In this document: positions 9,630-25,172 of the stretch, piece after piece
Layout: every line of letters begins with the position of its first letter
Numbering within the stretch: the first letter of the stretch is position 1
Virus record (IMG/VR): IMGVR_UViG_3300032309_000321
Location: 1-42,890 of that record
Length of the DNA stretch: 42,890 nucleotides
Origin: a virus
Direction: 5' to 3' (one strand)
Notes under the pieces: generated by a model
What the model saw: only the letters and a program-made list of their open reading frames with translations
Told to the model about the DNA's origin: nothing
The model's database searches: none
Made by a program: the position numbers and the translations under genes

Positions 9630-10050
9630 CTTTTGAATCGCCCTCGTCTAAGTATGCTAGAACTGCCTTCTTCGCATCTTCAATTGATAGTACTAGTGGT
9701 AATCCGTTAGGACCACTAATCTCTTGTCTTATCTTATCGTTCCTGCCCCATCGCTCTCCGTATTTTCTTTCAAGCCACCATGCTGATGCTTGCCATCTAC
9801 CATTTTGTGCTGCTTGTTGAATTCTTGCTACTGCAGCAACTTCAGCCTCGGCTTCAGCCTGTGTGAGCGACTCCCGAAACTCCCGAAATTCTTCTGGTGA
9901 GTCTGATTTATCAGCCATCTCTAACCAGCGATAAAGAGTTGTTTCACCGATTCCTGCCATCTCAGCAGCAACTTTCTTGTCATTACCTGCTCGTATAGAC
10001 ATCAGGAAACGAGCCTTTACATCTTCTGTTAATTTACTTGGGCGCGCCAT
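9553..10050 (-). CDS. terS: Terminase small subunit
   Basis: 165 aa. Residues 1-60 form an HTH of the phage terminase small-subunit type (KKVAAEMAGIGETTLYRWLEMA), followed by a helical oligomerisation region rich in A, E and Q and the block WQASAWWLERKYGERWGR typical of the family. TerS recognises the phage packaging site and regulates TerL. It overlaps terL by 77 bp in a different frame. The acidic C-terminal 35 residues are encoded in that overlap. The ATG at 10050 has AAAGGA upstream. The DNA-modification cassette lies directly before it in the same operon. Confidence 0.93.
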   Translation of the reverse strand: MARPSKLTEDVKARFLMSIRAGNDKKVAAEMAGIGETTLYRWLEMADKSDSPEEFREFRESLTQAEAEAEVAAVARIQQAAQNGRWQASAWWLERKYGERWGRNDKIRQEISGPNGLPLVLSIEDAKKAVLAYLDEGDSKDEFINSGSDSIVDEAGTSEMDTDPS

Positions 10051-10061
10051 TGCCTATTCCT

Positions 10062-10847
10062 TTATGGTCGTTGATATTTATTAAGGGTAATAGGCTTCAA
10101 GCGAAGATTGACTACTCCACCTGCTTTGATTTGAATTGAAGATATATCAGGGTATCTTGATTGCACCCATCTTAATTCTTCAGCGTGCCTATCCGCTCTC
10201 TTTGCTCCGTCTTCCGTGACGCAAGCATCTATACCGCCAGTAGCAAAATACTTTGTCTTGGGGCATAGAAATTCTAATCTAACTACTGAACCGTAACGAG
10301 TGAAACCTCTTAGAGTGCTGTGATGGTCTTCGCCTGTTGGTGTCATACGACGATTAGGGTCTGTGAATATCCAATCACCTGCAAATGTTCCCATGAAATT
10401 AGCACAAATATATCTCAAGCCTACTGACACATGATTTTTTAAGAAGAAATGATTCATTGTAGGATTGATGCCCCACATCTTTGCATTCTCTAACTCTGCG
10501 TATTTATATCCCATACTAATAATATCATCTATTGTGTATTGTGTAGGAATTAATTTCTTATCGCCTAATTCTAGTAAGTCTGCCATGTCATCATCAATAC
10601 TGACAATGCGTTCGCCAATCGGAAACCAGTTATGATAGAACTTTCTTTGGCTAGATATACCACGAACACCTACAACAATTTGATACTCTCCGTTGAGTAC
10701 TGTGTTGTAGGTATCGTATTCTTCTTCATCGGCAACAAATATAACAATGTTGTCACGATTAACTGAAAGTCTATCCAATACTGCGAGTGTCTGATTTTTT
10801 AATATATCAGGTCGTCTATAAGACGGTATCGCAATAGTGTATTTCAT
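10062..10847 (-). CDS. TET-associated glycosyltransferase-like protein
   Basis: 261 aa GT-A-type glycosyltransferase. The N-terminus MKYTIAIPSYRRPDILKN is the nucleotide-sugar binding start, and the metal/sugar motif is SIDDDMADLL with the DDD at 85-87. Further blocks (GISSQRKFYHNW, DACVTEDGAKRADRHAEELRW) fit the phage TAGT families described in TET/JBP operons, where they add a sugar to an oxidised base in DNA. The start overlaps the dioxygenase stop by 4 bp (ATGA), which strongly links the two steps. Sugar and base identity cannot be read from sequence. Confidence 0.82.
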   Translation of the reverse strand: MKYTIAIPSYRRPDILKNQTLAVLDRLSVNRDNIVIFVADEEEYDTYNTVLNGEYQIVVGVRGISSQRKFYHNWFPIGERIVSIDDDMADLLELGDKKLIPTQYTIDDIISMGYKYAELENAKMWGINPTMNHFFLKNHVSVGLRYICANFMGTFAGDWIFTDPNRRMTPTGEDHHSTLRGFTRYGSVVRLEFLCPKTKYFATGGIDACVTEDGAKRADRHAEELRWVQSRYPDISSIQIKAGGVVNLRLKPITLNKYQRP

Positions 10848-11707
10848 TTTATTTTGAAAGCGATATCACCTTTGACTGCTGACGCTAATCCAACTTCGCG
10901 TTCAGTTCTGCGCTTCCGTGCTTCCTTTTGTTCTACTGCATAAGTAAAACAATCTTTCATGCCACGCAAGCAGTAGTACACAACTGTATATCTGTATGAA
11001 TCTTTTTGAACATGTTTAATTGGTGTTACGCCATGCAGATATCTAAATCCTGGAAAGAATAATACCCAACCATCACGACATTCAATAGTTAAGTCATATT
11101 CAGGCATTGATAAATAACCACCACGAGTACCTCTACGAATAACAGGCATAGCAGACCACATATCAAAATTATTACCATCAAAATGATATGGAAGTGTAGA
11201 AGTTTTATTGATAACTCCGCTAGTCCATAGCGAGCGCTCGCTGATACGCCACTCGTCTGTGACTGCACCAGTTTCTTGCACATCTTTATCGTAAATATCT
11301 GGAGCAAATTCACGCATCATATCTGCTAATAAATCTGCTGTTTCAACTAATACATCATGTTCTTCGGGTTGTTCGTATGTAAGACTAGTAGGTCTGCACG
11401 CTTCACGGGTTTGAAATGGTTTGCGTGGTGCCATGCCGAATGTGCGAGAATGATTTTCAGTTCCAGTTGATTGACGAGTAACACCTGATGAACTGTATTT
11501 AACATTACGAACTGCTTGACGCAATTTAGGAACTGCATCTGCTGGCATTTCACAATAAACTAAAAATGGTTCATTAGTTTCAGCATCAACATAGATACCT
11601 GCTTTAGTAACATTTGCTTCTAAGTCAGGAACATCGTTGCCTTTAATTTCTTTTGATTCATCTCTTGAGATGACTCGCTTGACTGGAACTATTTCTAGAT
11701 CAATCAT
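10844..11707 (-). CDS. TET/JBP-family 2-oxoglutarate/Fe(II) dioxygenase
   Basis: 287 aa. The iron ligands are visible as HxD in LPYHFDGNN (His175, Asp177) and a distal His225 in PGFRYLHGVTP. Arg239 in SYRYTVVYYCL is the expected 2-oxoglutarate contact. This layout matches phage TET/JBP proteins, which hydroxylate the methyl group of 5-methylcytosine (or of thymine in JBP) in DNA. It is coupled by 4-bp overlaps to the ParB-like gene before it and the glycosyltransferase after it. I find no cytosine-C5 methyltransferase in the genome, so the source of a methylated substrate is open. A different substrate is possible. Confidence 0.85.
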   Translation of the reverse strand: MIDLEIVPVKRVISRDESKEIKGNDVPDLEANVTKAGIYVDAETNEPFLVYCEMPADAVPKLRQAVRNVKYSSSGVTRQSTGTENHSRTFGMAPRKPFQTREACRPTSLTYEQPEEHDVLVETADLLADMMREFAPDIYDKDVQETGAVTDEWRISERSLWTSGVINKTSTLPYHFDGNNFDMWSAMPVIRRGTRGGYLSMPEYDLTIECRDGWVLFFPGFRYLHGVTPIKHVQKDSYRYTVVYYCLRGMKDCFTYAVEQKEARKRRTEREVGLASAVKGDIAFKIK

Positions 11708-12345
11708 GATGGACTGTTTTCTCCTGTCGCTTCTTCTACTAATCTTCTAATTGCATCAGCGTTACTTTCAACGCCATATTGTGTTCTGAGTGCTGTCAGT
11801 TTTTCAATTATCCAAACATATTGTGCGTTAGGATATTCACACATCAATAAACGAATTGTTCTTTCTGCATAATGTTCTGCTCGTTCAGATAATGTAGGAC
11901 GATGCTGAACATTTTCTTGCTGTCCTTCTAATGTGTTGCCTGTTTTCCAATCAACTGCGACTTTTTCTTCTAAGAATGCTAATAAATCATCAACATCTGC
12001 TGGTTCATAACCAGTTCCTTCTAAATTGATTTCTTCTAATAAGTTTAATAATGCTTGCTCGTCGTATGTTCCTAATTCGCCAAGACGATTATCTGCCGCA
12101 ACAATTTTTTTCGCTTGCTCGTCATTGACATCTATCTCAACAACATTTATTTCTGTCCAACCTAATTCTTTTGCTGCTTTCCACAGATGATTACCGGCAA
12201 GAATTTGTTGTGTTGATTTTTGCACGACAATAGGTTTGTACTGACCATTGGTAGTTAATGACTCGGCTAGTTTTTTAACATTACCTTTGCGTGGATTGCC
12301 AGGAAATTCTTTTAATGTATCAACTAATACTTTGGTTGCTTCCAT
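11704..12345 (-). CDS. ParB/Srx-type nuclease-domain protein of the DNA-modification operon
   Basis: 213 aa. Residues 1-90 form a ParB N-terminal fold: LKEFPGNPRKGNVKKLAESL, then GQYKPIVV, then AGNHLWKAAKELGW, where family members usually have GxHR. The rest is helical and acidic, without the central HTH of chromosomal ParB. Such proteins recur next to phage TET/JBP genes and may guide the modification or act as a nuclease. The ATG at 12345 is chosen because AAAGG lies 5 nt upstream; a TTG at 12363 has no such site. It is the first gene after the 12.43-kb promoter and leader hairpin. Family firm; role inferred. Confidence 0.85.
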   Translation of the reverse strand: MEATKVLVDTLKEFPGNPRKGNVKKLAESLTTNGQYKPIVVQKSTQQILAGNHLWKAAKELGWTEINVVEIDVNDEQAKKIVAADNRLGELGTYDEQALLNLLEEINLEGTGYEPADVDDLLAFLEEKVAVDWKTGNTLEGQQENVQHRPTLSERAEHYAERTIRLLMCEYPNAQYVWIIEKLTALRTQYGVESNADAIRRLVEEATGENSPS

Positions 12346-12368
12346 GTTTGCCTTTCGTTGCAACAGGC

Positions 12369-12418
12369 GAGGCTATCTAATTTCTGGAAGGGTAAATAAC
12401 AGATTTTAGATAGACCTC
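12369..12418 (-). promoter_or_regulatory. Late leader stem-loop with anti-RBS loop
   Basis: In minus-strand RNA, 16 base pairs form in three blocks (GAGG/CCTC with one bulged T, CTATCTAA/TTAGATAG, TCTG/CAGA) around a 13-nt loop, UUAUUUACCCUUC. The 5' end of the stem coincides with the expected start site of the 12.43-kb promoter. No T-run follows, so it is not an intrinsic terminator. The loop is exactly complementary to the GAAGGGTAA(A) ribosome-binding boxes of early genes. Stem and complementarity are seen directly; the regulatory role is inferred. Confidence 0.72.
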
Positions 12419-12423
12419 ACCCA

Positions 12424-12452
12424 TTGATAGGAAGCATAACACACTTTGACAA
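12424..12452 (-). promoter_or_regulatory. Predicted sigma70-type promoter of the late unit
   Basis: The -35 box TTGTCA (12452-12447) and -10 box TATCAA (12429-12424) are separated by 17 bp. Transcription would start near 12417, at the foot of the leader stem-loop, and run into the ParB-TET-TAGT-terminase operon. The -35 box sits just beyond the stop of the HTH gene. Confidence 0.5.
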
Positions 12453-12462
12453 GAAAGTATTC

Positions 12463-12645
12463 CTACAACTTGTTTCGGCGTGTTTGTAGTGCCAGAACAT
12501 CAGCGAGAAGGAATCGGCTTCTCCGCTTTTGCCTTCCGACTGGCACTAATTTTTTTCTATATACAAGCATGCGTAATGCGTCAGGAGTAACTCCTAACAT
12601 CATTGCAGCCACTTCGGAATCAATAATGCCGTCGCCTTCACTCAT
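12463..12645 (-). CDS. Small MerR/excisionase-like HTH protein
   Basis: 60 aa. A winged-helix HTH spans most of the chain (SEVAAMMLGVTPDALRMLVYRKKLVP, then RRSRFLLADVLAL), as in excisionase and MerR-type DNA-binding families. The ATG at 12645 has a strong GGAGG four bases upstream. It is the last gene of the early unit and lies immediately before the late promoter, so it may regulate that promoter. No effector domain is present. Family call good; target inferred. Confidence 0.82.
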   Translation of the reverse strand: MSEGDGIIDSEVAAMMLGVTPDALRMLVYRKKLVPVGRQKRRSRFLLADVLALQTRRNKL

Positions 12646-12656
12646 TAATCCTCCAG

Positions 12657-12791
12657 TTAATCTACGCAGTCAAAACAATAATTAACTGCTCGTATTTCTT
12701 TCTCCCCTACGATATACCACCTACCACAGTGATAACACTGCGTTTTGATGGTTTGTGATTTACCAAGGAAATTCTTCAATAGGTTCTTCAT
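12657..12791 (-). CDS. Small zinc-finger-like protein
   Basis: 44 aa from ATG 12791 (MKNLLKNFLGKSQTIK). It has CYHCGRW and CFDC, a likely four-Cys zinc knuckle. It overlaps the ssb gene end by 32 bp. An upstream in-frame TTG would add a hydrophobic segment wholly inside ssb, which I think is not translated. GGA lies about 10 nt upstream. Unknown function. Confidence 0.6.
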   Translation of the reverse strand: MKNLLKNFLGKSQTIKTQCYHCGRWYIVGEKEIRAVNYCFDCVD

Positions 12792-13158
12792 CTGATTTGT
12801 CCGATATCGGTACTTGTGGTTCAGGAGCAAACTTAGGCACAACACCTACTCCGTCAGCATTGATTTCTAAAGATTGGCGGTCTTCACCATCTTTGGTTGT
12901 GTATTTAGATATTTGTAATCGCCCAGTGACTAATACTTTGTCGCCTTTGCGTAACGCAGTTGCGGTTCCAGCAGCATCGTAATTCCATACGAACACTCTG
13001 AACCAAGTAGTATCGCCATTCACCCACTCACCATTAACTGATTTGCGTGGAGTATTGGCTATATTGAAAGATGTAACAGGTGTTCCTTTAGGTGTTTTGC
13101 GAAACTCCGCATCGCTGCCTAAATTACCAACAACTGTAACGATTGCTTCACCAGCCAT
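12760..13158 (-). CDS. ssb: Single-stranded DNA-binding protein
   Basis: 132 aa OB-fold SSB. Residues 1-110 contain the family pattern: VTVVGNLGSDAEFRKTPKGT, TTWFRVFVWN, and KGDKVLVTGRLQISKYTTKDG. The C-terminal tip is acidic, EEPIEEFPW, which resembles the host SSB tip (DDIPF) that recruits partner proteins but ends in Trp rather than Phe. I chose ATG 13158 because AAAGGA lies 6 nt before it; ATG 13164 is only one base from that site. It protects ssDNA during replication and Redbeta-type recombination. It overlaps the HNH gene before it by 11 bp. Confidence 0.93.
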   Translation of the reverse strand: MAGEAIVTVVGNLGSDAEFRKTPKGTPVTSFNIANTPRKSVNGEWVNGDTTWFRVFVWNYDAAGTATALRKGDKVLVTGRLQISKYTTKDGEDRQSLEINADGVGVVPKFAPEPQVPISDKSDEEPIEEFPW

Positions 13159-13498
13159 TGCCATTCCTTTCTAGGTATTTATAGTTGCCTTCATTGTCAA
13201 GCATAACAATACTTTTATCAGGAAGCGTAACAAGACACTCCCAAGGGTCTTGCCAAGTTGGCACCATCAGACCTAATCGCTCTGCGAGCGCTGGGTTCAG
13301 GTGAACTGAGTCAGTATTGAGATTATGACACCCATGATGAAGCGCAACGAAATTAGATATTTCGTCTTTACCGCCTCTTGATTTTAGTTTTCTATGATGA
13401 AGCGCCCAACTCTCGGGAAGTGCATTTCCGCATTTTTCGCAGTACCCTTTGCTTCGTGCGTAAACTATCTCCCTCATCTTGCTTAACTCGCTTGCCAT
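13148..13498 (-). CDS. HNH endonuclease
   Basis: 116 aa from ATG 13498. HNH signature: zinc pair CEKC (20-23), His-His 34-35, Asn49 in DEISNFVALHHGCHN, and His58. A C-terminal tail of about 50 residues has no known motif. A TTG start at 13531 would lengthen the protein into the upstream gene and is less likely. HNH enzymes in phages nick or cut DNA and some assist packaging. Here it lies among replication and recombination genes rather than next to terminase, so a repair role or a homing-type origin is possible. Confidence 0.85.
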   Translation of the reverse strand: MASELSKMREIVYARSKGYCEKCGNALPESWALHHRKLKSRGGKDEISNFVALHHGCHNLNTDSVHLNPALAERLGLMVPTWQDPWECLVTLPDKSIVMLDNEGNYKYLERNGNGW

Positions 13499-14013
13499 GT
13501 GAGCCACTTTCCAGTCAGAGGATTCCTGCAAGCACTATTGACACAGATGAAATTATCATTCATACGCACTACGGAACGGTGCGAGCAGTTATCGCAGATC
13601 AATTCGGATTGATAGGCATAAATATCTCCATCATTGACCCTGACTTTGATTCGGGTATGCCAATGGAGTACCTCGTCGCTTAAAGTTTGAGATAACGATT
13701 TGTTACGTTGTTTTAATAAATGCCAGTTATTGCCTATCCACTTAACACGATACATAACAACAGGACAAGGACCTACCTCTGTTTTGCGTATGTGGTTTGA
13801 TAAATCTATCTTGGCTGAATTAGATATAAGTTTTGATGACACATGAACCCAGTCATGAAAGTCAATTATTAGACTGAGAGTGCCTATTGGAACAGGATAT
13901 CTTTGTGCATATTTTGGCGCACGAGCCTTCTCGCCATCGTTATGTTTATAGAATTCCCAAATGCGTGGGTAGTCGCTGAGTATTTCTTCTAGTAATCTTA
14001 CTGGTGATTCCAT
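13483..14013 (-). CDS. Unknown protein with C-terminal zinc ribbon
   Basis: 176 aa from ATG 14013, which overlaps the rusA stop by 16 bp and is probably coupled. ATG 14034 is the alternative but sits one base after AAGGAG. The N-terminal 50 residues (MESPVRLLEEILSDYPRIWEFYKHN) and middle (GTLSLIIDFHDWVHVSSKLIS) are helical. The C-terminus has CDNC and CVNSAC, a zinc ribbon. Architecture resembles uncharacterised actinophage proteins near replication genes. I do not recognise a function. Confidence 0.75.
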   Translation of the reverse strand: MESPVRLLEEILSDYPRIWEFYKHNDGEKARAPKYAQRYPVPIGTLSLIIDFHDWVHVSSKLISNSAKIDLSNHIRKTEVGPCPVVMYRVKWIGNNWHLLKQRNKSLSQTLSDEVLHWHTRIKVRVNDGDIYAYQSELICDNCSHRSVVRMNDNFICVNSACRNPLTGKWLTWQAS

Positions 14014-14423
14014 ACCTGTTCTATGGTTACCCATACTCCTTCTCTTTGTCCGTATGTTTTTGTTGCTTGTAGTAAAATTACTTGGCAATCATCTTCATAG
14101 GCTACTCCTGTAAGACCATCTAGTACAGCACGACATAATTTATCTATGTCAGGTTTCACCCAAGGAAATGCTCGGTTAGTTGATTTTGGTTTGAGGAATA
14201 TGAAATCTAATTCTAATTTCACTCCACCAGCAACAGGTTTGAAACCAGCAAGTTCTGCGTTTCTTGCTACATCAGCACGCCAAAGAGCCAAATCATGTGC
14301 CCGAGAATGAATCATCACTCCTGGTCTTATGAATTTCATAGACCCTTGTGGAACAGGTCGTCCTTTGACGAAGAATGAACTACTAATACCAATTCCTCTT
14401 TTCGTGATGCTCCCATGCTTCAC
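13998..14423 (-). CDS. rusA: RusA-like Holliday junction resolvase
   Basis: Up to 141 aa. RusA motifs: FFVKGRPVPQGSMKF (17-31), PDIDKLCRAVLDGLTGVAYEDD (91-112), with the acidic cluster Asp92, Asp94, Asp102 and Asp111/112 that binds Mg2+ for symmetric cleavage of four-way junctions. The start is uncertain. GTG 14423 lies inside the preceding gene with no clear ribosome site; GAGGA lies six bases before an in-frame ATT at codon 13. It works with the annealing protein and SSB in recombination, and it may debranch DNA for packaging. Confidence 0.9.
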   Translation of the reverse strand: MKHGSITKRGIGISSSFFVKGRPVPQGSMKFIRPGVMIHSRAHDLALWRADVARNAELAGFKPVAGGVKLELDFIFLKPKSTNRAFPWVKPDIDKLCRAVLDGLTGVAYEDDCQVILLQATKTYGQREGVWVTIEQVWNHQ

Positions 14424-14844
14424 AAGGTGAACCGTAACGGTGATCTATGTAGTTGAGTCCCCACGACACTTGAATAATTGGATTACTTAGAAATCTTTCA
14501 ATCTCTTCTTTTGTATTTTTGCTCATGTGTCTTTGTGGTATGCCGTAATCTTGTGTAGGTGATTCGGCTTCATAATTCCATGCGGATTCTTTGCCCCACA
14601 ACTTGCCTAAACATTTTAATTCTTCATCTTTCCAGTTATATTGTGTTGTAGCCAAAGCCCTTGCATAAGTCTTGCTGTCTATATTGACTGCTCCTGCTTT
14701 CGTAGGGTCAAAGACTGGGGCATGAACGGGATTTATCGGGGCTAGAAGGGTCATTAGGAAGGCGAAGTAAGAGCCAACGGTAAACCTTACCCGCCATTTT
14801 TTAGTCTTCCTCACAGCGCCTTGCAGTAATTTATTTGTTTTCAT
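14383..14844 (-). CDS. Secreted lytic transglycosylase-like protein
   Basis: 153 aa. A basic N-terminus and hydrophobic segment (residues about 21-35, FTVGSYFAFLMTLLA) form a signal peptide or anchor. The lysozyme-like SLT domain follows: YARALATTQYNW, CLGKLWGKESAWN with catalytic Glu86, DYGIPQ (99-104), IIQVSWGLNYIDHRYGSPCEAW. This cleaves peptidoglycan glycan strands. The layout is that of actinobacterial host proteins, so the gene may be host-derived. It is in the early unit, not in the lysis cluster, which suggests wall remodelling or superinfection effects rather than final lysis. GAGGTG precedes ATG 14844. Confidence 0.85.
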   Translation of the reverse strand: MKTNKLLQGAVRKTKKWRVRFTVGSYFAFLMTLLAPINPVHAPVFDPTKAGAVNIDSKTYARALATTQYNWKDEELKCLGKLWGKESAWNYEAESPTQDYGIPQRHMSKNTKEEIERFLSNPIIQVSWGLNYIDHRYGSPCEAWEHHEKRNWY

Positions 14845-14853
14845 ATTTACACC

Positions 14854-15162
14854 TCATAGGGTTCTAGTTTTAGACTTTTCATCGTCGTCATAGGCTTTTG
14901 CTCTTTGATGAGTTCCACGCTTGCGTAGTCTTTCAAATAAATCAAGTCGTGTTTTTGATGTCATGAATATTTCATAGCGATCAGGGTCGCACATAGGGCA
15001 CGGCGAAACACCTTCAAATGTTTCCGTTACAGTTGAACTTATGCCATTAGGTAATTTAACAATCTTATCTTCTGTAAACTTCCCTAATATCCAACCCTTA
15101 TCGCAACCTTGCGTGTGGGTGCATATACAACCACTACTGCCACAATGTTTTTCTAAGTCCAT
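14854..15162 (-). CDS. Small Cys-rich zinc-binding protein
   Basis: 102 aa. N-terminal CGSSGCICTHTQGCDKGW and a later SPCPMCDPDRY give at least six Cys, suggesting one or two zinc sites. The C-terminus is basic and charged. The start is coupled to the previous stop as TAATG. The pattern CxH...CDxGWI...PCPxC recurs in small actinophage proteins of unknown role. No enzyme motif is visible. Confidence 0.72.
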   Translation of the reverse strand: MDLEKHCGSSGCICTHTQGCDKGWILGKFTEDKIVKLPNGISSTVTETFEGVSPCPMCDPDRYEIFMTSKTRLDLFERLRKRGTHQRAKAYDDDEKSKTRTL

Positions 15163-15359
15163 TAGTTTCCCCTTCTACGAAACCTAAACCAATCCCAGAA
15201 AGTTGGAACTGGATTTTCATGTTCTAGGTATATGTGTGTATCCATTTGAAGTCCTGAATCATAAGCATCTCCTCGCTTCCATACGAGTATGTATCCACAA
15301 CTGTAGATACAACTCATGCTTTCCCAGTCTTCTGGAATATCATGACCACCAACTATCAT
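15162..15359 (-). CDS. Small unknown protein
   Basis: 65 aa, MIVGGHDIPEDWESMSCIYS. It is rich in Trp and Tyr and has a basic end (FRFRRRGN). It is coupled at both ends: its ATG overlaps the stop of the replication-initiator-like gene, and its stop overlaps the start of the Cys-rich gene (TAATG). The tight packing supports a real gene. No recognised family. Confidence 0.68.
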   Translation of the reverse strand: MIVGGHDIPEDWESMSCIYSCGYILVWKRGDAYDSGLQMDTHIYLEHENPVPTFWDWFRFRRRGN

Positions 15360-16144
15360 TACGCTTTCCTATCTGCATACATTCTTTGAGCCACTCGGAA
15401 AGCATAACTCACTAAGTCGGTTAAGTCTTTACTTGATGCTTCATCTATTGCAAGCAGGGCTATCCTGCCGAACCGCTTAGTCATTTGCCCTATGCGTGAT
15501 ATTTCAGCACTAGTAAGTTGCCTTGATTGAAGTTCAGACACATACCAAGCCGTCAACGCAATACAGCCACCGATGTCATTTGATTCATGCAACTTATCCC
15601 ATTCATCTTCAACTAATTTAGATAAATTCCAAGCATTGACGCCAGCGCCTCTTGCTTCTTCTAACTTGTTACCTATCCTGATAACTGCCTCTTTTGCTGT
15701 TTTTACTCTTGGCTGAGGAATTATCTCTAGGGAGTAGTTATCTTTATCTATATTTGGGTTGGGTTGGGTTGGGTTGGGTTGGGGGTGCAGTTTCTTTTGC
15801 GTTTCATCTGCGTTGCTTTGTTTATCCCTATACCGCTTCAATCTTTCCCTTGCTTCATCTCGTTTCTTATGAACCTTGTCACGAGTGGGTTGATACTCTG
15901 TGTAAGAACGGATTTGAAATCCTCTATCAATCCGTTCCCACAACCCTTGATCTTCTAATTCATCACTAGGTTTTTCAGGATTATCACCTACCCAAGCACT
16001 AACAATTTGATAAGGAATTACCCCGTCAGTTAATTGCCTGTTTGAATAACATAATCCAGTTATGAATAATCTGAAAGCAGTATCACCTAAAGCAATTATC
16101 TTCGGGTGATCTGCAAAGTTATCATCTAATCTTACCCAACCCAT
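15359..16144 (-). CDS. Replication-initiator-like winged-helix protein
   Basis: 261 aa from ATG 16144. This start has AAGGGG four bases upstream and overlaps the nuclease stop. Residues 1-85 (MGWVRLDDNFADHPKIIALG, FITGLCYSNRQLTDGVIP) match the winged-helix N-terminus of phage replisome-organiser proteins. A charged linker with PNPTQPNPN follows, then a helical C-terminal domain that may contact the host helicase loader or DnaB. It is the best candidate for starting phage replication, since no polymerase or helicase gene is present. The linker DNA is a GGGTT repeat on the other strand. Confidence 0.72.
   Translation of the reverse strand: MGWVRLDDNFADHPKIIALGDTAFRLFITGLCYSNRQLTDGVIPYQIVSAWVGDNPEKPSDELEDQGLWERIDRGFQIRSYTEYQPTRDKVHKKRDEARERLKRYRDKQSNADETQKKLHPQPNPTQPNPNIDKDNYSLEIIPQPRVKTAKEAVIRIGNKLEEARGAGVNAWNLSKLVEDEWDKLHESNDIGGCIALTAWYVSELQSRQLTSAEISRIGQMTKRFGRIALLAIDEASSKDLTDLVSYAFRVAQRMYADRKA
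15756..15785 (+). repeat. GGGTT tandem repeat (G-quadruplex-type)
   Basis: Five GGGTT units followed by GGGGG on the plus strand. On the minus strand it encodes the Pro/Asn/Thr/Gln linker of the replication-initiator-like protein. Five or more G-runs separated by TT fit the classic quadruplex pattern. The repeat may also expand or shrink by slippage. Confidence 0.85.
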
Positions 16145-16809
16145 TATTCCCCTTTCTTCTTGCCAGCGCAACCCTTAGTGCCAGTTGAATCGTAATAACT
16201 ACAATATGATTTGCAGAAGAATGGATCTTTTTCTGCCAATGGTCCGTAGCCTTTAGATTCACGAACCATCTCTAACCATTTGATTGCTTCTTTAGCAATC
16301 TCTCTATCATAGGGTTCGGTGTGATAAACAATATCTCGTTCATCGCCATCTCTTGGGATACCAACAAGTGTTACATTTTTAACTTCATAAGTATTTTGCT
16401 CTAGAAGCCAACCATATACTTGAACTTGCCAGCGTTGTTGTTCAGAAGGGAAGCGAGGTATTTTTGATTTAGTAATTGTTTTCCAGTCAACCACCTCGCA
16501 ATTTTCTATATCAAATAAATCAATATGACCCTTGATGCCTTCGGCTTCCATTGATTCTTCTAACAGATATTTTTCACTGAATGGGTCTTCTTTCTTAAAG
16601 ACTTCATGTATGTATGTATGAATTGCGTTGCCCATAATTGCTGGTAAGTTGATTGTGTTGAAATTAGTCTTTGGCCAGTTTCCCATTTTCAGCCATACCT
16701 TTCTACGACAACCACCAATCTCGCTAGGTCCTACTTCTTCCTGTAAAGACCTAGCACTAGTTTTACTACTACCAGCAATAGTCTTGATTAGATCATTGAC
16801 TATTGTCAT
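16144..16809 (-). CDS. Cas4/RecB-like PD-(D/E)XK exonuclease with Fe-S Cys set
   Basis: 221 aa from ATG 16809. RecB-family core: His64 in GNAIHTYIHEV, Asp97 in GHIDLFD, Asp108 and Lys110 in CEVVDWKT, and Gln residues near 124-130. Four Cys (34 in GGCRRKVW; 199, 203 and 214 near the end) match the 4Fe-4S arrangement of Cas4/AddB-type nucleases. It probably resects DNA ends to supply ssDNA to the Redbeta-type annealing protein at 19 kb. I chose ATG over the upstream GTG because AAGGG lies 5 nt before it. There is no CRISPR array, so an adaptation role is not suggested. Confidence 0.87.
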   Translation of the reverse strand: MTIVNDLIKTIAGSSKTSARSLQEEVGPSEIGGCRRKVWLKMGNWPKTNFNTINLPAIMGNAIHTYIHEVFKKEDPFSEKYLLEESMEAEGIKGHIDLFDIENCEVVDWKTITKSKIPRFPSEQQRWQVQVYGWLLEQNTYEVKNVTLVGIPRDGDERDIVYHTEPYDREIAKEAIKWLEMVRESKGYGPLAEKDPFFCKSYCSYYDSTGTKGCAGKKKGE

Positions 16810-17068
16810 TATCACCCTTCTTAGTTTTATTGAATGCTACCTCAACGCAATACCTGAATGAACCCATTATTTCTTGCCACACACCTTCATCGCTATTCAT
16901 TTTATCAACGATATCTGACCAATCATATTCTGAAAACTTAAAATCTTTTTCATCATTCAAGTTACTCATGGCATGTTCGTCGGCTTCATCTTTATCAAAT
17001 AAAGCAATGAACAAGATATCATCATCAGGCATATCTTTGATAACTTCTTTTAGTTCTTTCACTTTCAT
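16793..17068 (-). CDS. Small acidic unknown protein
   Basis: 91 aa, MKVKELKEVIKDMPDDDILF. Strongly acidic in the first half, with a short Asn/Lys-rich end. The middle (WSDIVDKMNSDEGVWQEIMGSFRYCVE) is helical. The ATG at 17068 overlaps the secreted-protein stop by 4 bp (ATGA), and the ribosome box is GAAGGGTAAAA. No recognised family. Confidence 0.7.
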   Translation of the reverse strand: MKVKELKEVIKDMPDDDILFIALFDKDEADEHAMSNLNDEKDFKFSEYDWSDIVDKMNSDEGVWQEIMGSFRYCVEVAFNKTKKGDNDNSQ

Positions 17069-17712
17069 TTTTTACCCTTCTTTCTAATAAGTGCTTTAGC
17101 ATTTTCTTTTGTAGTTATTTGCACACCATTTTTCGTGCCCATAATTACAGTAGATTTTTTGACAATAGGCTTCACTGAAAATGTGCTATTCAATTTTCCT
17201 ATTGTCAATGTAGTTGCTGTCGCAGTAGCAGTTGTTGTATCTACTGGCGTTAGCGTTGGCGTTGGCGTTGGTTCAAGTGTTGTCTCAGGTGTCGGTTCAG
17301 GTCTGACTATCGAAACAACAGGTCTATCGTTGCCAGGACTAGTTGCTGGTGTAAATTTCTCAACTGTTTGAGCAGTATAAGAAATAACAGTTTGATCATT
17401 GATGATAATTGGCTCAGCAGGTTTGATTTCAACTTGCCTAGTCACAGTCCATTCTGCAGTTTCAATATCAACCTTGACTTGCGTATTAAGGTTGTTGTTA
17501 CCAATACCTGCTTGACCAGTTCCTTGTAGTACATACTGTTCACCTGCTTGAAGTGTCAGTTGTGAATACTGTGAACCAGCACCACAAGTGCCAGCATCAC
17601 ACATGATGGCTCCGCCAATAGCATTACCATTAGCATCTACTTTGACATAAACATCTGCATACGCAGGTGTTGCTCCTAGAATTAACGCTAGGATTATTAT
17701 TATTTTTTTCAT
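17065..17712 (-). CDS. Secreted Thr/Pro-rich protein with signal peptide
   Basis: 215 aa. Clear signal peptide, MKKIIIILALILGATPAYAD, with probable cleavage after AYA. A compact domain follows (residues 20-120, with a Cys pair in IMCDAGTCGAG), then a low-complexity stalk of PEPTPETTLEPTPTPTLTP and repeated TA (about 140-175), and a basic tail ending RKKGKK. The export signal on an early gene suggests action at the host surface, for example superinfection exclusion or wall interaction. The ribosome box is GGAAGGGTAAA. Export call good; function not recognised. Confidence 0.75.
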   Translation of the reverse strand: MKKIIIILALILGATPAYADVYVKVDANGNAIGGAIMCDAGTCGAGSQYSQLTLQAGEQYVLQGTGQAGIGNNNLNTQVKVDIETAEWTVTRQVEIKPAEPIIINDQTVISYTAQTVEKFTPATSPGNDRPVVSIVRPEPTPETTLEPTPTPTLTPVDTTTATATATTLTIGKLNSTFSVKPIVKKSTVIMGTKNGVQITTKENAKALIRKKGKK

Positions 17713-17730
17713 TTTACCCTTCCCTATCTA

Positions 17731-18818: not shown

Positions 18819-18980
18819 TTACCCTTCGTGTAGTAGTTGTATATATTGCTCTATATTTGTTTGTACCTCACGCATTACTGCTTCAGCGAATTCAATATCA
18901 CCGCTTTGTGCAGCATTGAACAATCTAGTGGAAGATCGAGTTAGATAATCTGCCACTAGTGGATTTAGTACTTTGCGCAT
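18819..18980 (-). CDS. Small unknown protein, 53 aa
   Basis: Reads MRKVLNPLVADYLTRSSTRL, then helical text ending IQLLHEG. The ATG at 18980 overlaps the annealing-protein stop as TAATG. Its own stop TAA is part of the GAAGGGTAA box of the next gene. That tight fit on both sides supports a translated gene. No family recognised; it may be a partner of the annealing protein. Confidence 0.7.
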   Translation of the reverse strand: MRKVLNPLVADYLTRSSTRLFNAAQSGDIEFAEAVMREVQTNIEQYIQLLHEG

Positions 18981-19886: not shown

Positions 19887-20055
19887 GGCTTATCTCATCT
19901 GTTCTAATTACGCCTTGCCACTCAACTTCAAAAACACTTAGATAATAAGTGCCATCAAGTTCAGTTTTGATTGCTTCTTGTATTTCTTCTGCATTCAAGT
20001 CTTCGGAATCTTCTTTGAGATATACCGCTAACTTATATACATGAATTGGTTTCAT
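19876..20055 (-). CDS. Small unknown protein, 59 aa
   Basis: Reads MKPIHVYKLAVYLKEDSEDL and continues as a small alpha/beta fold ending in RTDEISHEE. The ribosome box is GGGAAGGGTAATG, with the start directly at the box end. It lies 15 bp after the stop of the MSMEG_6728-type gene. No known family, but length and composition resemble the 59-60-aa proteins at 23572 and 23776. Confidence 0.68.
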   Translation of the reverse strand: MKPIHVYKLAVYLKEDSEDLNAEEIQEAIKTELDGTYYLSVFEVEWQGVIRTDEISHEE

Positions 20056-20070
20056 TACCCTTCCCTTCGT

Positions 20071-20969: not shown

Positions 20970-20993
20970 ATTGATTACCCTTCTGTTAGTTTG

Positions 20994-22383: not shown

Positions 22384-22641
22384 TTATTTACCCTTTCCGC
22401 TAACTTCAGTCAACTCAATTTGAGTTGCTGAACTGTTCAACTCTTTGGCTGCTGATATAGCAAGACCATAAGAGTCAGTTATGAATACTGGCTTAGTAAC
22501 GACACCAGTATCCATAAATTTCTTGAATGATTTCCAGTCAATAACAAATGCTTGACCAGAGTTTATCCATTCTTTTTTACGGCAAGCATCGCCGTAATAA
22601 CCGCCTGACTGACATGCTATGAATGAATTAACCTCACTCAT
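22384..22641 (-). CDS. Small unknown protein
   Basis: 85 aa, MSEVNSFIACQSGGYYGDAC. The middle WINSGQAFVIDWKSFKKFMD and the rest form a small alpha/beta fold. It uses GAGGCAACA before ATG 22641 rather than the early GGGTAA box. The start overlaps the stop of the 69-aa gene by 4 bp. Its stop codon abuts the DUF932 start, so its last codons contain the DUF932 ribosome box. Not recognised. Confidence 0.68.
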   Translation of the reverse strand: MSEVNSFIACQSGGYYGDACRKKEWINSGQAFVIDWKSFKKFMDTGVVTKPVFITDSYGLAISAAKELNSSATQIELTEVSGKGK

Positions 22642-22847: not shown

Positions 22848-23029
22848 GCGTTTACCCTTTCTTGTAGTGTGGTTAGTTTTTTATTCAACTTATATATTTC
22901 ATCTTGAACTTGTTCTGCTTTATCGCATTCTGCACACCAATAGCCATAAAGACCATTGGCGAACAGCGACTCAGCAACTACTTGTTTCATTTGCATGCAG
23001 ACATTACAATTTTTATATTTACTTATCAT
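22844..23029 (-). CDS. Zinc ribbon plus coiled-coil protein
   Basis: 61 aa. CNVC (8-11) and CAEC (32-35) form a four-Cys zinc ribbon, followed by a heptad-type helix (AEQVQDEIYKLNKKLTTLQE). Such proteins often bind nucleic acid or RNA polymerase as dimers. GAGGACTAATC precedes ATG 23029. It may regulate transcription; this is inferred from fold only. Confidence 0.68.
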   Translation of the reverse strand: MISKYKNCNVCMQMKQVVAESLFANGLYGYWCAECDKAEQVQDEIYKLNKKLTTLQERVNA

Positions 23030-23484: not shown

Positions 23485-23510
23485 GGTTTACCCTTACTGT
23501 TTGTCTAACG

Positions 23511-23751: not shown

Positions 23752-23775
23752 TACATACCCTTTCGTTAGTAGTTG

Positions 23776-24329: not shown

Positions 24330-24354
24330 TTTATTACCCTTCATGTCGCAGACG

Positions 24355-24422
24355 AGGCTCGTCAGTTGTGTCCGATAACACAAGACACACAAGCAACTCA
24401 TAATTACTTGTGTGTTTCGCCT
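24355..24422 (-). ncRNA. Type II hammerhead ribozyme (HHR2)
   Basis: Minus-strand RNA: stem II AGGC then GAAA. Stem III CACACAAG/CUUGUGUG has a 13-nt loop. The cut triplet is GUC (after 24384). Stem I UUGUGU/ACACAA has loop UAUCGG. CUGACGA is followed by GCCU, closing stem II. The stems differ from HHR1 in sequence yet pair perfectly, which is covariation between two copies. It lies in the 5' leader of the early operon, cutting 54 nt before ATG 24329. Confidence 0.93.
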
Positions 24423-24529
24423 TAATAATTTAGAGCGACAGCACTTTCGATATATCGCCATTTGTCGTTGTATCTAGAACTCGGTGCGTTGCGTAATTGA
24501 TAGAGGTCAGTAATCGCTATACATATCTG

Positions 24530-24559
24530 CTAATAAGTAGTCATCGCGTAACATGTCAA
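24530..24559 (-). promoter_or_regulatory. Predicted early promoter
   Basis: A perfect -35 TTGACA (24559-24554) and -10 TATTAG (24535-24530) with 18 bp between them. The start would be near 24522, placing hammerhead 2 about 100 nt into the transcript and before the first early gene. Confidence 0.5.
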
Positions 24560-24591
24560 TCAGGTTATCCTCGGGCGTCGCACCGTAGTAG

Positions 24592-24611
24592 GGCTAGCCG
24601 ATTCTAGAATC
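24592..24611. promoter_or_regulatory. Twin palindromes, operator-like
   Basis: Two adjacent perfect palindromes, GGCTAGCC (24592-24599) and GATTCTAGAATC (24600-24611), sit about 33 bp upstream of the early -35 box. Symmetric sites of this size suit a dimeric regulator. No second copy of the pair was noticed. Confidence 0.45.
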
Positions 24612-24746
24612 TAACTTAACAACTTCTTGGCTTCGCTATGTAATTATCAGGTAATAACCTTTTCTGTCAGGTTAAGAAGTTCCCTAAGGATTTAATGACT
24701 TCCTAACTTCACCAGAGTTTTATCCCTGACCACTGATTTTTCACTT

Positions 24747-24780
24747 TTGAGTTTTGCCCCTAGAGGATTCTAAAAACTCA
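24747..24780 (+). promoter_or_regulatory. Possible plus-strand promoter within an inverted repeat
   Basis: TTGAGT (24747-24752) and TAAAAA (24771-24776) are 18 bp apart and would serve the plus-strand gene. The same bases form the inverted repeat TGAGTTTT/AAAACTCA around CCCCTAGAGG. Weak match to consensus. Confidence 0.3.
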
Positions 24781-24834
24781 GCCGTGCCAGTCCCTTCAGT
24801 TTAGCAGTTTGAGGCTGTAAGACAAGCCCCGAGG

Positions 24835-24898
24835 CTCGCCGAGCAGGTCGGCTTAATAATGAGGCTTCTATGCGCCTTTGGGCGTGGCGAGGTTTTTT
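24835..24898 (+). terminator. Possible plus-strand attenuator/terminator
   Basis: CTCGCC (24835-24840) can pair with GGCGAG (24886-24891), enclosing the hairpin CGCC-TTTG-GGCG (73-84 of the 24.8-kb block), and is followed by TTTTTT at 24893-24898. It lies just before the plus-strand ATG 24915, so it may end a short RNA or attenuate the gene. The stem is open and long-range, so confidence is low. Confidence 0.3.
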
Positions 24899-24914
24899 GG
24901 GGTATTGTCCAGCC

Positions 24915-25124
24915 ATGCCACTAGCCAAAGTAATCATCAATCTAGGCGGATTGAATATAAGAGTTGAACAAGAATCTGCTTATCCAGATATGGTTACAGA
25001 CTTATGTAATCGTGCTGCTGTACTGTTTGGCACAGCATTAGCACAAGCCCAAGCCAGTGAATTAAATGTTATGGCGAGTACTTGGGTTGATTATGGCGAT
25101 GATGAAGAAGACGAAGAAGAATAG
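24915..25124 (+). CDS. Small acidic protein, the only plus-strand gene
   Basis: 69 aa from ATG 24915 (MPLAKVIINLGGLNIRVEQE). An in-frame ATG at 24870 has a better GAGG site but would add 15 residues coded by the GC-rich structured stretch, so the start is uncertain. The chain is a small beta-helix fold ending in DDEEDEEE. It is followed 14 bp later by the strong terminator. Codon use looks phage-like. It may be an early host-takeover or regulatory protein; no family is recognised. Confidence 0.75.
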   Translation: MPLAKVIINLGGLNIRVEQESAYPDMVTDLCNRAAVLFGTALAQAQASELNVMASTWVDYGDDEEDEEE

Positions 25125-25138
25125 GCAAAAAAAATAAA

Positions 25139-25162
25139 CCCCTACCGTAGTAGGGGCTTTTT
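25139..25162. terminator. Strong bidirectional intrinsic terminator
   Basis: CCCCTAC-CGTA-GTAGGGG followed by CTTTTT on the plus strand; on the minus strand the same stem is followed by an AT-rich tract ending in T8. It ends the plus-strand gene and also the late unit, whose last gene stops at 25173. Confidence 0.92.
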
Positions 25163-25172
25163 GTTTCTGTTA

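Follow-up and report, generated by a model that had tools for sequence, protein, structure and literature searches.

The window, i.e., the whole stretch of DNA analysed here, is a phage contig of 42,890 bases from IMG/VR with a G+C content of 41%, and nearly all of its long ORFs lie on the minus strand. The genes located between about 24.3 and 12.5 kb encode, among others, RecT, a PD-(D/E)XK exonuclease, a DUF932 protein, and SSB, and those from position 12345 on include genes for a ParB-like protein, a Tet/JBP oxygenase, a glycosyltransferase, the terminase, and the portal protein. Based on this gene content, we inferred that the former group is early and that the stretch from ParB to portal runs in late direction. 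The gene following the ParB-like gene (10847-11707, minus strand) carries the PHROGs label queuine tRNA-ribosyltransferase and was assigned by Pfam to the Tet/JBP 2OG-Fe(II) oxygenases (PF12851, E 5e-11), and the next gene (10062-10847, minus strand) showed a weak match to a TET-associated glycosyltransferase. The two genes, which lie in the late operon immediately ahead of the terminase, probably act as a pair in DNA hypermodification. A strong intrinsic terminator (CCCCTACTACGGTAGGGGTTTATTTTTTTT) at 25125-25157 on the minus strand is likely to be the end of the late transcript. Furthermore, an inverted repeat (24376-24424) just before the first early gene with a ribosome box (see below) and a region of about 700 bases in which no clear gene was recognised (24462-25170) seem to represent the early control region.

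Between the end of an HTH gene (12463) and the start of the ParB-like gene (11704..12345, minus strand; phrog_723, E 2.5e-48), both again encoded on the minus strand, we identified a hairpin, the putative late leader, whose full stem-loop spans 12361..12426 on the minus strand and comprises 24 bp, interrupted by a single bulged U and a mismatch in the inner part. Its minimum free energy was -30.5 kcal/mol compared to -16.1 +/- 2.8 kcal/mol for shuffled sequences (z -5.1), and it ranked first in stability among 253 hairpins scanned on both strands of the window. The loop of 13 nt, UUAUUUACCCUUC (also written TTATTTACCCTTC; 12387..12399, minus strand), is complementary to nine gene starts, and its core is kept in relatives. 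Thus, a stable hairpin with a single-stranded loop, as expected for an RNA that displays an anti-Shine-Dalgarno (SD) sequence in the manner of c4 RNA or RNAIII, is present. A search against Rfam revealed no family, including c4, at gathering score anywhere in the window.

A putative extended -10 element, TG-T-TATGCT (12433..12441, minus strand), was recognised by reading the sequence and predicts a transcription start at about 12426, i.e., at the base of the stem; the motif TGTGTTAnnnT occurs at similar spacing from the hairpin in L002-L005, L007, L008, L013, and L015. A simple sigma-70 scan at the hairpin found neither a two-hexamer promoter nor a consensus -35. The preliminary description, made from the sequence alone, had placed the hairpin at 12369-12418 and had its stem begin where a late promoter would initiate. 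The first claim held in part, since these positions cover only the inner part of the stem; the second fits the putative -10 element, though without a -35 and with the transcript itself inferred. The loop lies about 40 nt ahead of the first late start codon and away from the late ribosome-binding site (RBS), and the RBS of the ParB-like gene itself is GAAAGGCAAAC and not a box. An independent small RNA gene with its own terminator was also considered and is unsupported, as no terminator-like site was found within 12300-12650 and the RBS of the ParB-like gene follows directly after the hairpin. It remains conceivable, and no more than possible, that the hairpin is processed out of the late mRNA.

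The counterpart of the loop was found in front of the early genes. The sequence AAGGGTAA occurs in nine minus-strand copies, each directly upstream of an early ATG and with a complementarity to the loop of 9-12 nt, and only twice on the plus strand, where one copy corresponds to the hairpin loop. The claimed complementarity of 9-12 nt to the ribosome boxes of nine listed genes was thereby confirmed for all nine. Six of these boxes, all on the minus strand, read GAAGGGTAA (9 nt) and are located at 24334..24342 (before ATG 24329), 20975..20983 (before ATG 20969), 20055..20063 (overlapping ATG 20055), 18819..18827 (before ATG 18816), 17714..17722 (before ATG 17712), and 17072..17080 (before ATG 17068), the match being extended to 10 nt as GAAGGGTAAA in the last two. 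Two further boxes read AAGGGTAAA (9 nt; 23487..23495 before ATG 23484 and 22851..22859 before ATG 22847, minus strand), and the longest match, AAGGGTAAATAA with 12 nt (22384..22395, minus strand), precedes the DUF932 gene at ATG 22383. In addition, a partial box AAGGGTA (AAAGGGTATG) was detected at 23756..23762 (minus strand, before ATG 23751) and a degenerate box GAAGGGTGA at 16812..16820 (minus strand) before ATG 16809 of the PD-(D/E)XK exonuclease gene, whose start carries the box GAAGGGTAA in the close relative L005.

A perfect box is present in only about a third to half of the early genes, and ssb and recT have none in the window. Many late genes carry AGGAG-type sites, and none of the listed late genes has a box. 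A duplex energy with the loop of -10 kcal/mol or lower was reached by 11 of 29 early starts versus 0 of 12 late starts of the window. The hairpin also topped the 253 scanned hairpins with regard to matching gene starts, with nine matches of at least 8 nt compared to three for the runner-up, so that the complementarity of the loop to translation initiation regions exceeds chance, as would be required for a c4- or RNAIII-like mode. The genes at 12463-16809 (minus strand; ssb, HTH, and others), between the boxed region and the putative late promoter, mostly possess AAGGGG, AAGGC, or AAAGGA boxes and might constitute a third, middle class of ribosome sites.

Relatives were gathered from IMG/VR by scans for ParB, the Tet/JBP oxygenase, and DNA patterns, resulting in about a dozen divergent lineages; the comparison is limited by fragmentary contigs and by mechanically called gene starts. 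The hairpin heads the late operon in every relative of the hairpin clade whose contig covers the site, the carriers being the window, L002-L005, L007, L008, L013-L019, L021, L041, L073, L081-L084, L090, L135, and L138. While the stems differ between lineages, with that of L008 sharing little with the stem of the window, the core UACCCUU (UACCCUUC) is kept in all carriers except L021. The complete loop reads UUAUUUACCCUUC in the window and L005, UUAUUACCCUUC in L007, L073, L081, L082, and L090, UUACUACCCUUC in L008, UUACUUACCCUUC in L041, UUUCUUACCCUUC in L013, L135, and L138, UUUUUUACCCUUC in L015, UUCUUACCCUUC in L017, UUUUACCCUUU in L016 and L018, and UUAAUCCCUUUU in L021. In the outer eight stem pairs, 99% of the cells pair and double changes were found at seven pairs, leading to a covariation score of 0.806 versus 0.378 in shuffles (none of 500 reached it) and no more than 0.28 in slid controls. 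Covariation was counted on these outer pairs only; MAFFT aligns the inner stem poorly on account of length changes. Structure and conservation are thus shown.

In some relatives, other genes are located behind the hairpin, namely a sugar-nucleotide epimerase gene between hairpin and ParB in L018 and L019 (L018 9055-9990), another gene at this place in L082 and L083 (L082 about 9800-10000), and a different gene directly behind the hairpin and ahead of ParB in L073 (after 2300). Since the hairpin stays first in spite of these genes, it is an element of the operon head and not an autoregulatory site of ParB.

The active strand could also be determined. Given that the plus-strand fold is stable in the window as well (-20.3 kcal/mol for 50 nt), a plus-strand RNA presenting GAAGGGUAAAUAA might act as a decoy that binds the ribosome or a protein. 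However, G-U pairs numbered 54 on the sense strand, i.e., that of the late mRNA, versus 6 on the complement, the sense strand was the more stable one in 17 of 17 hairpins, and the flanking genes are on the minus strand, all of which virtually rules out the decoy. The bias in G-U pairs shows that the RNA corresponds to the late-mRNA strand.

Beyond the clade, no isolated phage showed DNA similarity to the region or the hairpin, and a query with L073 matched downstream epimerase-like sequence only. The best listed ParB relatives in isolated phages reached at most about 42% identity. Typha, Ottawa, and Prairie have hairpins before their ParB genes, none with this loop, and neither the more distant viral ParB loci inspected (L091-L093 and L120) nor the sister phages sharing the Tet/JBP oxygenase, which served as negative control, have such a hairpin. 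The DNA-pattern scan resulted in 59 stretches, with strong hairpins in clade members only. In a genome scan for the host, the only ParB genes found, those of Bifidobacterium and Mycobacteroides, were distant ones. With the host unidentified, and as late viral RNAs could reach host messages, one might assume that host mRNAs are the main targets and the early phage boxes incidental. This appears very unlikely: in 198 genomes of the phylum to which Bifidobacterium belongs, AAGGGTAA followed by ATG is rare, with no more than 26 occurrences in any one genome and frequently near the level of the reversed control, but it is abundant in the early region of the phage.

Restriction of the boxes to early regions was also shown across the relatives. 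When 13 lineages were pooled, at least 8 contiguous nt complementary to the lineage's own loop were found in 112 sequence windows at early ATGs versus 2 at late ones; 1000 shuffles of the loop gave a mean of 13.9 and a maximum of 36 early windows. It should be noted that such windows can overlap and that the shuffles preserve composition only. AAGGGTA followed by ATG occurred 93 times in 180 kb of early sequence of the relatives versus once in 106 kb of late sequence; in 33 sister loci without the hairpin, some of which are near-duplicates, the sequence preceding the oxygenase (about 276 kb in total) contained only six. Thus, boxes and hairpin occur together and are missing together. The boxes match mostly the shared core, and a genome is often fitted about equally well by the loop of another lineage and by its own loop.

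More specific information came from lineages with altered loops. L016 and L018 have a U instead of a C at the 3' end of the loop, and all ten of their boxes read AAAGGGTA and none GAAGGGTA, i.e., all have A, compared to 47 boxes with G and 38 with A in lineages with the C loop (Fisher p 0.001). The loop of L021 contains AUCCCUU (AUCCCUUUU), and here AAGGGA was found five times and AAGGGT not at all, compared to 89 T and 16 A elsewhere (p 1.7e-4). This is also visible at orthologous starts. At the DUF932 gene, the window and seven other lineages have AAAGGGTA, compared to AAAGGGAA in L021, and orthologues of the gene at 15162 have GAAGGGTA in L013 and L073 (C loops) and AAAGGGTA in L016 and L018 (U loop), with the exception of L015, which has AAAGGGTA despite its C loop. 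The Fisher tests treat homologous boxes as independent, and since only two evolutionary events underlie the co-change, the p values overstate the evidence. Nevertheless, both shifts run in the direction predicted by pairing, and co-change of loop and targets, a further feature expected of a c4- or RNAIII-like mode, is met on two independent changes only. Loop and boxes had been expected to be conserved together, and this held, the boxes changing to match where the loop had changed; drift of the loop with fixed boxes, named as a possible refutation, was not seen in the relatives, where the loop core is kept and the stem diverges with compensatory changes. The preliminary description's central claim, that an anti-RBS loop shuts off early translation, is therefore supported by comparison, with late timing and repression still inferred.

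These data also bear on two rival explanations. First, the hairpin might merely shield the 5' end of the late mRNA, the loop match being coincidental or due to an unrelated constraint. Stabilising leaders typically consist of a stable hairpin, as seen here at the predicted 5' end, with an RBS behind it, and the element may do both. As the sole explanation, however, shielding is very unlikely, as the loop is conserved while the stem drifts, and as the boxes are nearly absent from sister phages without the hairpin and change along with the loop. Second, control could be reversed or run both ways, so that abundant early mRNAs pair with the leader and destabilise the late mRNA until early mRNA falls. 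Pairing is symmetric, and all comparative evidence fits either direction. The complement is located exactly at many early boxes, but in the late leader away from the RBS, and a single loop facing many RBSs is how a repressor of many genes would be built; reverse control is hence considered unlikely.

The reading we prefer, and regard as likely, is that the late transcript begins with a trans-acting anti-SD element by which one class of early genes is repressed; the promoter, its late timing, the direction in which control runs, and the repression itself are all inferred. In this model, the hairpin would form the 5' end of the late transcript and its loop of 12-13 nt the anti-SD element. At the onset of late transcription, the loop would be exposed by every late mRNA, or by a hairpin released from it through processing, and would form 8-12 base pairs with boxes of the GAAGGGTAA type at many early genes; 12 pairs within a loop of 13 nt would be strained, and 8-9 are more realistic. 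Pairing would deny access to the ribosome and perhaps invite cleavage by RNase III, while late genes, ssb, and recT would escape via other SD sequences and stay on.

Similar modes of action have been described. The c4 RNA, an antisense RNA that phages P1 and P7 direct against ant mRNA, is likewise a phage-encoded structured RNA with loops complementary around a phage ribosome-binding site, and it blocks translation (PMC12197685). While c4 acts on one gene in immunity, the loop identified here fits about ten dispersed starts and sits in the late mRNA. OOP, sar, and aQ of lambdoid phages are also antisense RNAs of phages that regulate phage genes during development (PMC12197685), but of one gene each, whereas here a single loop, encoded elsewhere, fits many targets. 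RNAIII and the Rsa sRNAs of Staphylococcus aureus pair via C-rich UCCC loops with the SD of several mRNAs and thereby repress translation, in some cases with cleavage by RNase III (PMC3861533). In contrast to these bacterial chromosomal sRNAs, the loop with the ACCC core is viral and tuned to a dedicated early box instead of the general SD. Shut-off of early proteins in phages is known to be achieved through promoters, through proteases, or, as with T4 RegA, through proteins that bind RNA. With respect to the outcome, the element resembles RegA, a phage-encoded repressor acting on about 30 mRNAs at their initiation regions (PMC3014915). RegA, however, is a protein with loosely defined sites, and the proposed repressor is an RNA with base-paired sites; an RNA is favoured over a protein of this type because loop and boxes are related by complementarity and not by shared sequence. 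A search of the open-access literature revealed no phage late-leader element addressing a dedicated early SD class. Altogether, the mode is known from c4 and RNAIII, while the multi-target action, with repression inferred, and the placement within a late mRNA set this element apart.

Taken further, and again likely though with repression inferred, this would be an RNA-only, virus-wide translational switch from early to late, in which a dedicated class of early SD sequences is silenced jointly and late genes are spared. The model makes a clear and cheap prediction for compensatory mutants of loop and box and shows how comparable switches could be searched for in other viruses. If true, it would provide these phages with a simple, protein-free coupling of early shut-off to late transcription and would explain the unusual SD confined to their early genes.
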